DNA of 64,000 nt from Bacteroidota bacterium (GTDB lineage: Bacteria; Bacteroidota; Bacteroidia; Chitinophagales; Chitinophagaceae): contig JAHEFK010000016.1 of NCBI GenBank assembly GCA_024640225.1, positions 1 through 64,000 on the forward strand, in the 5' to 3' direction. A program made the position numbers and the translations under genes. Under the pieces are notes generated by a model. That model ran no database searches. It had not been told where the DNA came from and saw only the letters and a list, made by a program, of their open reading frames with translations. Shown here in pieces: positions 42,972 through 46,530 of the stretch; position 1 is the first letter of the stretch; every line of letters starts with the position of its first letter.

Positions 42972-42997
42972 ACAAAAAAGCTGCAAATGCAGCTTTT
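42972..42997 (-). terminator. Rho-independent terminator after the receiver gene
   Basis: The stem AAAGCTGCA/TGCAGCTTT (42977-42985 with 42988-42996) has a short AA-centred loop and is followed by a U run on the minus transcript. It lies 20 nt past the stop at 43016. Confidence 0.75.
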
Positions 42998-43015: not shown

Positions 43016-43519
43016 TTAAAATGTTCTGTAAAACATAAACCACAAGGTAGCAGCAATAAATATCGACAACCCTATGCCTAAATATATGATGGTTCTTTTA
43101 TAGGCATTATTGATGGATTTGTATTTATGCAACTCACTTATGTTATTCATTATGTTCTCAATCCTTGAAAATGCAGTTTCGCCTTTTAAAACATAGTCAT
43201 ACGCACCATATTTCATACTCTCCACAGCTACTTCAATTTTGTCTTGACCAGAAAGCATAATCACCTCTACTTTGGGGTAATTATCCTTAATCATTTTCAA
43301 AACCTCTACACCATTTTTAGCCGACTTATCATGTGCATTCAAATGATAGTCTAAAACGATAACCTCAGGACCTAAGTGCATTTCTTTCATTGCCTCCTCT
43401 CCATTATCAAACGTTTTAATGTGTGATAAGAAGCGATCTGCTAAAAAGTCTTTCAACATTTCGTTTTGAATGGGTTCATCATCGATAAGAAACACGAACC
43501 TTTTTTCTTGCACTTCCAT
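43016..43519 (-). CDS. Receiver-domain protein with C-terminal membrane anchor
   Basis: A 167-residue protein with a CheY-like receiver at residues 7-125: acidic pair Asp13/Asp14, phospho-acceptor Asp57 (VIVLDYHLN), Ser90 and Lys112 (YVLKGE) are all present. There is no DNA-binding or enzymatic output domain. After a short helix (HKYKSINNAYKRT) comes a single hydrophobic helix at about 143-163 and only three to four residues beyond, so the receiver is predicted to be tail-anchored with the domain in the cytoplasm. It lies 62 nt downstream of the TPR hybrid histidine kinase, which carries an HPt domain, so it is the probable terminal acceptor of that phosphorelay. Confidence 0.85.
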   Translation of the reverse strand: MEVQEKRFVFLIDDEPIQNEMLKDFLADRFLSHIKTFDNGEEAMKEMHLGPEVIVLDYHLNAHDKSAKNGVEVLKMIKDNYPKVEVIMLSGQDKIEVAVESMKYGAYDYVLKGETAFSRIENIMNNISELHKYKSINNAYKRTIIYLGIGLSIFIAATLWFMFYRTF

Positions 43520-43581
43520 AGGGTTAAATTTTTAAGAAAATTACAAACTATAATTTATAAAGTCAATACAATGTACACTTT

Positions 43582-46191
43582 TTATTTTTTTTGATTTAAC
43601 TCCGCATAGACTTGATTACAAACTCTATTTAAATTTGCAACTAGATTAGGTAATTGCTCAGTATGTGTTTGTGTACCCGCCAATTGCTCAATCATTAAAA
43701 TATGACTCACCTCTTCATCAATACCCATATACGACATTTGAGGCTTTAGTGAATGGGCTGCAATTTTAACTTCTTCATAATCCAGCTTTTCCATCCCAAG
43801 TTCCAATCTACTTAATAATTTTGGTGCATTTTCTAAAAACATGCCAATATACTTATTCAGCTTTTGCTGATCATTATTTGTAAACTGTTTCAAAAAATCT
43901 AAATTAGTATACGTTTTTGAAACGCTTTGTTGTTCTTCTACCTGCGCTACTGATTGCTCATTGATTGCTACCCCATGCAATAGTTTGCTAATTTTCTGAA
44001 TTAGCACTTTTATTTCAAATGGTTTAGAAATATAATCATTCATGCCAGACGCTAAATAATGCTTGATATCTTCCTCAAACACATTAGCCGTCATCGCAAT
44101 GATAGGCACCTGGCTATTGGGTATGGGCAATTTTCTTATCAATTTTGTTGCGGTTACGCCATCCATTTTAGGCATCTGGATATCCATTAAAATAAAATCA
44201 TAGCACTTTTCTTTTGCACGCTCAAAAGCGATTTCACCATTTACAGCAAAATCTATTTGAGGATTAGTTAAAAACAATTTTAAGGTATCTTCAGCAACCA
44301 TTTTATTGAATTCATTATCCTCTACTAAAAGAATTTGTAATGCACTCGGCAACACTTCGCTTAATGTATATTCTTCATCTTTAACATTATGGGTTTGATC
44401 AGCCGATAGTTCTATTGGCAGTAGCACTTTAAAGGTGGTACCTTTTGCCAATTCGCTTTCTACAGAAATTTGACCTTTCATTAAATCAACCAATTGCTTG
44501 GAGATAGTTAGACCCAATCCTGTCCCACCAAATTTTCTCGTAACATCCGTACCTGCTTGTGTAAAACTATCAAAAATACTATCTAGATACTCTTTTGATA
44601 TACCAATGCCGGTGTCTATAATTTCAAACACAATAAAATAGGTAGATGCAACTATTTTTTCTATACCTACTTTTATTTTCACATACCCTTTTTCAGTAAA
44701 CTTGATAGCATTGCCCGCAAGATTTATTAATACTTGGTTGATTCTAGTAGGATCACCATTGTAATAAGCAGGCAAAGCAGGATCTATTTGAATTTCAAAA
44801 TCTATTTGTTTCTCCTGTGCTTTAAAGGATAACATATCTTGTATATAACCCAAACATTGTGGTATTGAAAATCTAGTATGCTCTATAATAATTTTCCCAG
44901 CTTCAATTTTAGACAAGTCTAAAATATCATTTATAATTACTAATAAATTATTGGCTGATTGCTGAATCGATTTGAGATATTTTAATTCTTCACCATAGTG
45001 CTCTTTACTTAGCAGCAAATTCGTCATGCCCAATATCGCATTCATAGGCGTTCTGATTTCATGGCTCATATTAGCCATAAATTGCTGCTTTAAATTAGCA
45101 GTTTTTTCTGCTACTTCTTTTTCTTTTTGGGCCAATTCAATTTCTTGACGAATCTGAATGTTCTTTAACCTATTAAAGGTGGCTTGAGAGAAAATCTCTT
45201 CTTTTAATTGCTCATATTGTTTTAAATGATAGAAGGCTTTAGGAATATCATTGGTCTTGTCGAATAAATTAGAAAGCAATTCATGAATACTCATTACATC
45301 ATGCTTTCTATTGTAATCACTCGCCAATGCTAATGCGGCTTCAAAATGCTCCCGAGCTTCTTCAAAAGCATTTAAATCTAATTTTAATCTCCCCAGATAG
45401 AACTTACAGATAATTTGTACTTCTACATGCTGCAATAATTCAGATTGCAAAAGCGCATCTTGCAAATGATTTTCTGCATCTTTAAAATTATGCATTTTGT
45501 AGTACACCTTGCCCATCCCGCTTATTGCGGTTGCATACGCCAAGGTATCGGGTTCGTTTTGATCTGCATTTTGTTTAAAATAAGTCAACGCTTCCTCGTA
45601 ATCATCCATTTTAAAATAGATATTACCCAAAGTATTGTTTAATTGTAGCAAACGCACACTATCATTAAAGGATCTAAAGATGGCTAACGATTTCAATGCA
45701 TAGTCAAGCGCACTCTCATAATCATATAAATCATAATGGATGTTTGCTAAGCTGAATAAACAAACGGATTGACTTAAATGATCTTCTAATTTTTCAGTGA
45801 TAACAAGTGCATTCTCATAGTATTTTAAAGCGGTAGATAGTTGCGCTAAATCCCTATAGATATTTCCGTAATTAATAAATATACGGGCCAACAAACTTTG
45901 ATTCTGAATTTTAATGGCTACTTTTTCTGCCTTATTCAAAATCGCCAATCCTTCATCATAATCGCCGTGCAACCATAAGCAAAAGCCCAATAAATTATAC
46001 CCTCTCCCTTCACCCAAGGTGAAATTAATTTGCTGCGCACGCTGAATAACTTCTTCTGCCATGACTGTCGCCTTTGGCAAATCAAAACTTCTTGTTTCTA
46101 ATGCCAACTCAATTAAGGCGCTTATTTTCTCTTTTTCATCTATCGCATGTTCATAAGCATCTTCTAATTGATGTAATTTATTTATATCCAT
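43582..46191 (-). CDS. Cytoplasmic TPR hybrid histidine kinase with receiver and HPt
   Basis: An 869-residue protein. There are seven to eight TPR units (about 20-330; for example ALKYYENALVITEKL, LQLNNTLGNIYFKMDDYEEAL), then a coiled coil at 340-370 and HisKA with His377 (MSHEIRTPMNAILG). HATPase_c is about 480-592 (N-box NLAGNAIKFTE, DTGIGIS, GGTGLGL), the receiver about 617-735 (Asp670, Lys723), and the HPt about 765-869 (His813, AAHSLKPQM). There is no signal peptide or membrane helix, so it senses a cytoplasmic cue or partner through the TPRs. All relay residues for H377-D670-H813 transfer are intact. It is co-directional with the tail-anchored receiver gene. Confidence 0.92.
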   Translation of the reverse strand: MDINKLHQLEDAYEHAIDEKEKISALIELALETRSFDLPKATVMAEEVIQRAQQINFTLGEGRGYNLLGFCLWLHGDYDEGLAILNKAEKVAIKIQNQSLLARIFINYGNIYRDLAQLSTALKYYENALVITEKLEDHLSQSVCLFSLANIHYDLYDYESALDYALKSLAIFRSFNDSVRLLQLNNTLGNIYFKMDDYEEALTYFKQNADQNEPDTLAYATAISGMGKVYYKMHNFKDAENHLQDALLQSELLQHVEVQIICKFYLGRLKLDLNAFEEAREHFEAALALASDYNRKHDVMSIHELLSNLFDKTNDIPKAFYHLKQYEQLKEEIFSQATFNRLKNIQIRQEIELAQKEKEVAEKTANLKQQFMANMSHEIRTPMNAILGMTNLLLSKEHYGEELKYLKSIQQSANNLLVIINDILDLSKIEAGKIIIEHTRFSIPQCLGYIQDMLSFKAQEKQIDFEIQIDPALPAYYNGDPTRINQVLINLAGNAIKFTEKGYVKIKVGIEKIVASTYFIVFEIIDTGIGISKEYLDSIFDSFTQAGTDVTRKFGGTGLGLTISKQLVDLMKGQISVESELAKGTTFKVLLPIELSADQTHNVKDEEYTLSEVLPSALQILLVEDNEFNKMVAEDTLKLFLTNPQIDFAVNGEIAFERAKEKCYDFILMDIQMPKMDGVTATKLIRKLPIPNSQVPIIAMTANVFEEDIKHYLASGMNDYISKPFEIKVLIQKISKLLHGVAINEQSVAQVEEQQSVSKTYTNLDFLKQFTNNDQQKLNKYIGMFLENAPKLLSRLELGMEKLDYEEVKIAAHSLKPQMSYMGIDEEVSHILMIEQLAGTQTHTEQLPNLVANLNRVCNQVYAELNQKK

Positions 46192-46203: not shown

Positions 46204-46237
46204 AAAAAAACAAGCCCCTTGCAAATGCAAGGGGCTT
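46204..46237 (-). terminator. Rho-independent terminator after the 2TM gene
   Basis: A perfect 11-bp stem (46212-46222 with 46227-46237, AAGCCCCTTGC) has the loop AAAT, followed by seven U on the minus transcript. It separates the 2TM gene from the hybrid kinase gene. Confidence 0.85.
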
Positions 46238-46252
46238 AATATAGTAATGAAA

Positions 46253-46504
46253 TTATCCGTTATCTGACATTCGCATAAATTCGTCGTAATTCTTATCTTC
46301 GAAAGTAGTCCACAATGCGCACCAGTGACCTACTACTGCTAAAGCCCAAGCCGCAGTCAACCAAGCTGGCCAAGGATAAACCCATCCTGTAGCTCCTTTA
46401 TCATACATAGTCCACATTAAGAAGTTTGCAATTGCAAAAACTACTAAATGGATATAGAAAATCGATTTTTGTTTTGAGGTAGGTAAAATCTGCTTAAGTG
46501 CCAT
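46253..46504 (-). CDS. 2TM domain protein
   Basis: An 83-residue membrane protein starting at ATG 46504-46502 (MALKQILPTSKQK); seven codons of upstream frame are not needed. Two hydrophobic helices are visible (about 17-34, FYIHLVVFAIANFLMW, and about 46-64, PAWLTAAWALAVVGHW). The second contains the HWC...W pattern of the 2TM family. The tail is EDKNYDEFMRM. In Bacteroidota the 2TM domain often accompanies LytTR or histidine kinase genes; here the hybrid kinase gene follows beyond a terminator. Function is unknown. Confidence 0.8.
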   Translation of the reverse strand: MALKQILPTSKQKSIFYIHLVVFAIANFLMWTMYDKGATGWVYPWPAWLTAAWALAVVGHWCALWTTFEDKNYDEFMRMSDNG

Positions 46505-46522
46505 AATCAAAATGAATTTATG

Positions 46523-46530
46523 CAAATATA
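46523..46530 (-). promoter_or_regulatory. Putative -7 element for the 2TM gene
   Basis: The minus-strand TATATTTG matches TAnnTTTG, 19 nt before the 2TM ATG. A TTTTTG at 46548-46543 lies only 12 bp upstream, too close for a standard -33 element. Confidence 0.35.

Follow-up and report, generated by a model that had tools for sequence, protein, structure and literature searches.

A soluble hybrid kinase and a response regulator with a predicted membrane anchor: a putative phosphorelay of the Chitinophagaceae that may act at the membrane

Introduction

Response regulators are usually sorted by their soluble output domains. The locus considered here raises the question of how a phosphorelay might act when its last receiver carries no such domain and ends in what appears to be a membrane helix. 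The locus lies in a 64,000-nt window of a Bacteroidota bacterium of the family Chitinophagaceae (assembly GCA_024640225.1, contig JAHEFK010000016.1; positions below are those of the window) and consists of a hybrid histidine kinase gene and, downstream on the same minus strand after an intergenic gap of 62 nt, a gene encoding a short receiver protein. Few relays remain in this 1.85-Mb genome, in which only ten receiver matches were found, and the pair is one of them. An earlier note, made from the sequence alone, had regarded the topology as reversed (soluble sensor, membrane-bound final receiver) and the receiver as lacking an output domain, and had proposed that phosphorylation controls something at the membrane by protein contact rather than transcription. 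We favour, with a probability of roughly 0.55, a reading in which a cytosolic phosphorelay ends in a membrane-anchored terminal receiver that acts by contact, helix alpha5 of the receiver domain and the transmembrane (TM) segment being part of the switch.

Results

The kinase carries a complete relay and no membrane segment

The kinase gene and its parts are as follows.

43582..46191, minus strand: soluble hybrid kinase, 869 aa, TPR-HisKA-HATPase_c-REC-HPt (Pfam, hydropathy, AlphaFold2)
45202..46191, minus strand: TPR sensor region, aa 1-330 (Pfam TPR_12, AlphaFold2)
44896..45090, minus strand: HisKA, aa 368-432, phospho-acceptor H377 (Pfam)
44410..44757, minus strand: HATPase_c, aa 479-594 (Pfam)
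43990..44334, minus strand: internal receiver (Response_reg), aa 620-734, D670 (Pfam)
43585..43866, minus strand: HPt, aa 776-869, H813 (Pfam Hpt match 781-852)

The protein thus has the HisKA, HATPase_c, REC and HPt domains and the His-Asp-His series of a hybrid kinase with HPt. Its relay residues H377, D670 and H813, like D57 of the receiver, stand at the positions that the earlier note had named, and none of the three kinase residues varies among the 58 kinases that exceed 800 aa. The Hpt match scores 20.8 bits alone, under the Pfam cut-off of 24.6, and 24.9 bits, counted over the cut-off, together with its frame neighbours; it is the only Pfam HPt match of the whole genome. Hydropathy (Kyte-Doolittle, 19-residue mean) peaks at 1.66 within the ATP-binding domain, bearing out the view that the kinase has no membrane segment, and the kinase is likewise soluble in all 60 members of the cluster that exceed 600 aa. 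In the AlphaFold2 model (mean pLDDT 81.6, pTM 0.45) the TPR region is built of 16 helices, followed by a single helix (316-395) that runs into HisKA.

The receiver domain fits the terminal position of a relay

The receiver gene contains the following features.

43016..43519, minus strand: single-domain response regulator, tail-anchored by sequence, 167 aa, D57 (Pfam, hydropathy, AlphaFold2)
43136..43498, minus strand: receiver domain, aa 8-128, with D13, D14, D57, S90, Y109 and K112 (Pfam, alignment)
43028..43174, minus strand: one predicted helix, aa 116-164, comprising alpha5, a juxtamembrane stretch and the membrane segment (AlphaFold2, conservation period, spacing)
43034..43090, minus strand: C-terminal transmembrane segment, aa 144-162 (hydropathy, conservation)

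Response_reg (residues 9-114) is the sole Pfam domain of the protein, in which Pfam finds no DNA-binding or enzymatic domain; it is a single-domain response regulator to which a membrane helix has been added. The phosphorylation quintet (acidic pair, D, S/T, K) is present. In an alignment of 99 receivers that includes some near-copies, D14, D57, Y109 and K112 are invariant, D13 is found in 97 and replaced by E in the rest, position 90 is S in 98 and T in one, and a Lys-Gly pair stands in 93 at the place after beta5 where Lys-Pro is usual, the latter being what the part of PMC9981736 drawn on here leads one to expect. Mean entropy is low on the surfaces alpha1 (0.32 bits), alpha4 (0.54), beta5 (0.27) and alpha5 (0.68) and higher in the variable helices alpha2 (1.31) and alpha3 (1.29), so that alpha1 is the most conserved surface helix, alpha4 the next and alpha5 the third. 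The beta3-alpha3 loop of the protein encoded at 43016-43519 is presumably lengthened relative to typical receivers.

The same portion of PMC9981736 describes alpha1 as the docking site of phosphotransfer partners and associates S/T-Y coupling with terminal receivers and a FATGUY motif with intermediary receivers (Rec-inter, of the CckA/MrrA type). We found no FATGUY-like motif at beta4 of this receiver, which reads MLSGQD, and its beta5 aromatic residue is the invariant Y109. S90 and Y109, as read from the alignment, would fit a terminal receiver.

The membrane helix appears to continue alpha5

The receiver contains a single hydrophobic segment, with a mean hydropathy of 2.13 at residues 144-162 (Kyte-Doolittle, 19-residue), which bears out the helix of the earlier description; the 62-nt spacing from the kinase agrees with it exactly. 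The note had proposed a genome search for such receivers beside TPR kinases. We scanned one genome per species (84,980 species) and retained the best 80 of 106 stretches; there are at least 80 orthologous receiver loci, at 56-99% identity. Among these best 80, a C-terminal membrane segment is present in every receiver, residues 145-161 hold no D, E, K, R, N, Q or H in 78 and one such residue in the other two, the net charge of residues 134-143 averages +2.85, and the tail after the helix averages 8.3 aa. The membrane helix is accordingly supported by hydropathy, by the positive charge that precedes it, by conservation and by the AlphaFold2 helix; judged by its residues, the receiver has what defines a tail-anchored protein: a single helix near the C terminus, a short tail and a cytosolic N-terminal domain.

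Several observations, made on inspection and not corrected for phylogeny, bear on how the helix is joined to the domain. In the receiver model built with 34 relatives (mean pLDDT 88.0, pTM 0.75) the helix 116-164 is continuous; long helices in single-chain AlphaFold2 models tend to come out straight. Across 62 non-redundant orthologues, conservation repeats every 3.45 positions over residues 129-162 (permutation p = 0.0012 for residues and 0.0052 for residue groups, statistics of the helix pattern that ignore phylogeny), and the resulting heptad-like stripe, which includes L130, K134, N137, Y140, K141, I144 and L147, extends into the membrane. The distance from K112 to the membrane boundary is 29-34 residues in 40 TM receivers. 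At K112+28/+29, an offset picked after inspection, 12 of the 16 receivers from beyond the orthologue clade and 20 of the 24 within it have an ungapped [YQF][KR] pair; at 19 other offsets from K112 at most 2 of the 16 do.

Related receivers occur with and without the helix. TM receivers at 31-49% identity adjoin other hybrid kinases in other families of the order: PAS hybrid kinases (L200, L236, L240, L241) and hybrid kinases with extra receivers (L209, L212). In five loci (L208, L209, L210, L212, L241) a separate HPt gene stands directly upstream of the TM receiver, which speaks for the relay order given below. In locus L203 (1802-5826), an H-NOX gene (PF07700, E 5.3e-52) is followed by an HNOBA-PAS-HK-REC-HPt kinase and then by a TM receiver, an arrangement in which a nitric oxide sensor may signal to a receiver anchored in the membrane. 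The TM-less branch (L195, L202, L204, L215-L220, L222-L224, L227, L229-L234) comprises proteins of about 143-146 aa that adjoin soluble hybrid kinases; the gene often overlaps the upstream kinase gene by 4 nt, and the proteins end where the membrane helix would start, in a tail like KKMEKEL-WYM-RM (WYMxRM), most of them with a tyrosine at the K112+28/+29 place. A tree of 76 receiver domains, in which L205, cut at a contig end with its tail unseen, was scored as TM-less, mixes the two forms with six label changes, at least four of them forced (few columns); the membrane helix has therefore been gained or lost several times. The full-length form was found in only 2 of 395 genomes of a phylum sample (E <1e-60); divergent TM-bearing receivers (L226, L228) occur in a further two genomes, which belong to a different family, f57.

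These relatives also qualify the reversed topology. The kinase is indeed soluble and the receiver membrane-bound by sequence; this is not the distinctive point, because kinases paired with TM-less relatives are soluble as well and because one kinase (L210, 1101-2408), whose gene is followed by those for an HPt protein and a TM receiver, has an N-terminal membrane segment, so that soluble kinases are not a universal rule. An exchange of anchors, in which the kinase would be soluble since the receiver had taken over its anchor, was rejected, as the kinases beside TM-less relatives are also soluble.

The helix might nonetheless do no more than concentrate a CheY-like receiver at the membrane, leaving it to the phosphorylated surface to contact a membrane protein. 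The TM-less members of the same family lend this some credit, as does EpsW of Myxococcus xanthus, an anchorless single-domain regulator that, in the portion of PMC12802240 consulted, switches the membrane enzyme EpsZ, a phosphoglycosyl transferase, post-translationally by contact. Neither the fixed spacing nor the conserved stripe, both of them observed, would be required of a passive anchor, and we consider this alternative possible but rather improbable. The helix does not have the look of a loosely attached anchor: alpha5 and the TM segment form one helix in the AlphaFold2 model, the spacing from K112 is nearly fixed and the conserved stripe enters the membrane. By the same token, to call the receiver devoid of an output domain is right as far as Pfam goes, Response_reg being alone, and may mislead otherwise, as the alpha5-TM helix, of fixed length and patterned, looks like an output element.

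Kinase and receiver are inherited together

In 62 of the best 80 of 106 loci the kinase lies directly upstream of the receiver. One of these 62 (L094) has a REC-headed kinase in place of the TPR type; its twin is L254 (4360-6959, genome G096), where a second TM receiver stands beside a REC-HK-REC-HPt kinase that itself follows a TPR kinase containing three membrane segments. G096 also has an unlinked copy of the receiver (L102) and a TPR hybrid kinase. In the other 18 of the best 80, unrelated genes or a contig end lie upstream of the receiver, and the kinase is found elsewhere in all 18 genomes; it is full length in 17, one of them with an internal stop codon, and is seen just as a fragment at a contig end in G092.

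Profile searches of 195 genomes of the family gave a full-length receiver in 39 (E up to 4.2e-60) and the kinase in 41 (E up to 1e-130). The next receiver matches (E 4.7e-45) stop before the membrane segment, and the receiver threshold was chosen after this gap had been seen. All 39 receiver genomes contain the kinase, and 39 of the 41 kinase genomes contain the receiver, the two others being G034, whose kinase is a fragment, and G194, which is 69% complete. By coordinates, the genes are linked in 23 of the 39, unlinked in 13 and undecidable at contig ends in three. G156, a relative of G007 and G226, has neither gene at the thresholds used. The count of 39 overstates independence because all of these genomes lie in one clade; after separation of the two genes in several genera, neither has been lost, and the pairing is beyond chance.

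Joint maintenance would also be expected if the receiver served feedback, either as a phosphate sink or by docking the soluble kinase at the membrane. The conserved alpha1 helix, the docking surface for phosphotransfer partners (PMC9981736, in the portion cited above), and the receiver-like kinase inhibitors described in the accessible part of PMC12471899 are in keeping with this. Such a role would leave the genome's sole HPt without another evident receiver in its own operon, and would not explain the retained S90/Y109 switch or the conserved alpha4-beta5-alpha5 face; we judge it unlikely. It is very improbable that the HPt has its main target in another receiver of the genome and that the neighbouring position of the TM receiver is secondary: the genome's ten receiver matches and a mirror-tree test with no special HPt-receiver coupling (receiver-HPt partial correlation 0.07, not above that of other kinase domains) would allow it, and the joint occurrence in 39 of 39 genomes, unlinked ones included, and the separate HPt genes directly beside TM receivers in five loci speak against it.

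The pair resembles a two-gene unit

Three features flank the pair.

42976..42997, minus strand: hairpin resembling a terminator, downstream of the receiver gene, with a stem of 9 bp and a T run (z -1.13)
46211..46238, minus strand: hairpin resembling a terminator, in the gap that separates the 2TM gene from the kinase gene, with a 12-bp stem containing 7 G-C pairs and a T run (z -5.46)
46253..46525, minus strand: small 2TM-domain membrane protein (PF13239; Pfam)

The second hairpin is strong, and the first has an energy ordinary for its composition. Because hairpins with T runs flank them, kinase and receiver look, in the nucleotide sequence, like a two-gene unit.

Of the 195 family genomes, 38 have a close orthologue of the 2TM protein (E up to 2.7e-20), and 37 of these also have the TM receiver (37 of the 39 receiver genomes); the protein is a weak candidate for a partner of the receiver. 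As a third operon member it is less convincing: the strong hairpin separates its gene from the kinase, it stands upstream in just 29 of 75 loci, and G156 has it with no full-length receiver or kinase at the thresholds used. No persistent neighbour gene names a target among the best 80 of 106 loci, where the kinase alone recurs; an aminotransferase gene (34 of these 80) and others were set aside as guides to the target, since they look like syntenic housekeeping genes. Searches of an open-access collection for papers on membrane-bound or tail-anchored receivers, and on 2TM domains beside kinases, turned up no account of this family.

Discussion

A plausible course of events can be proposed for a cytosolic relay ending in an anchored receiver. 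The TPR domain would sense a cytosolic protein or peptide signal, H377 would become phosphorylated, and the phosphoryl group would pass to D670, to H813 and from there to D57 of the receiver, whose domain, by hydropathy and charge, probably sits at the inner membrane on its cytoplasmic side. The S90/Y109 switch would read the phosphorylation and the alpha4-beta5-alpha5 face would change; because alpha5 continues as one helix into the membrane, pairing of the receiver with itself or with a membrane partner might then be altered through the alpha5-TM helix. The output would be post-translational, at the membrane and through protein contact. On this last point the earlier proposal remains the best reading of the sequences, given a soluble kinase, a receiver that is membrane-bound by sequence, their joint inheritance and a receiver with no DNA-binding or enzymatic domain in Pfam. 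If alpha5 and the TM segment are coupled, lengthening or shortening the stretch that joins them should abolish or reverse signalling.

A bolder version, which we regard as doubtful, is an inside-out transmembrane switch in which phosphorylation in the cytosol rotates two paired alpha5-TM helices or moves them apart and passes the signal into or across the inner membrane, as an output class of the Bacteroidota. If true, it would be the mirror image of a sensor kinase, reused behind TPR, PAS and H-NOX cytosolic sensors. More generally, two-component signalling would gain an output at the membrane from a conserved family that has, as its only recognisable output feature, a membrane helix rigidly joined to alpha5.

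Among known systems, the closest solved receivers by sequence and fold belong to the NtrC family (Aquifex NtrC1, NtrX; 1zy2, 4l4u, 1ny5), in which an AAA+ sigma-54 domain and a Fis-type HTH follow the receiver; both are absent here according to Pfam, and a membrane helix takes their place. A helical linker follows alpha5 in NtrC1. CheY, Spo0F, CpdR and EpsW, like the protein described here, have one receiver domain with an intact phosphorylation site and no DNA-binding or enzymatic domain, and their output is protein contact, as it would be here; they are described as receiver-only, whereas alpha5 of this receiver is joined to a conserved membrane helix at the C terminus. EpsW itself, as the consulted portion of PMC12802240 presents it, is fed by a chemosensory system and has a known target, EpsZ. 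A membrane anchor on a response regulator is shared with the MetOD3-REC-MetOD2 regulators of Methanoregula, four of which are listed in the relevant passages of PMC5847659; there the anchor is N-terminal and about 180 aa long, and a second domain follows the receiver. The same passages put archaeal kinases without membrane segments at 62%, so that soluble kinases are not rare in archaea. Finally, TM-HPts (RcsD and, in the available part of PMC13206810, plant proteins) also place in the membrane a relay component that acts after the kinase; in these it is the phosphotransfer protein that is anchored, and here it is the final receiver.
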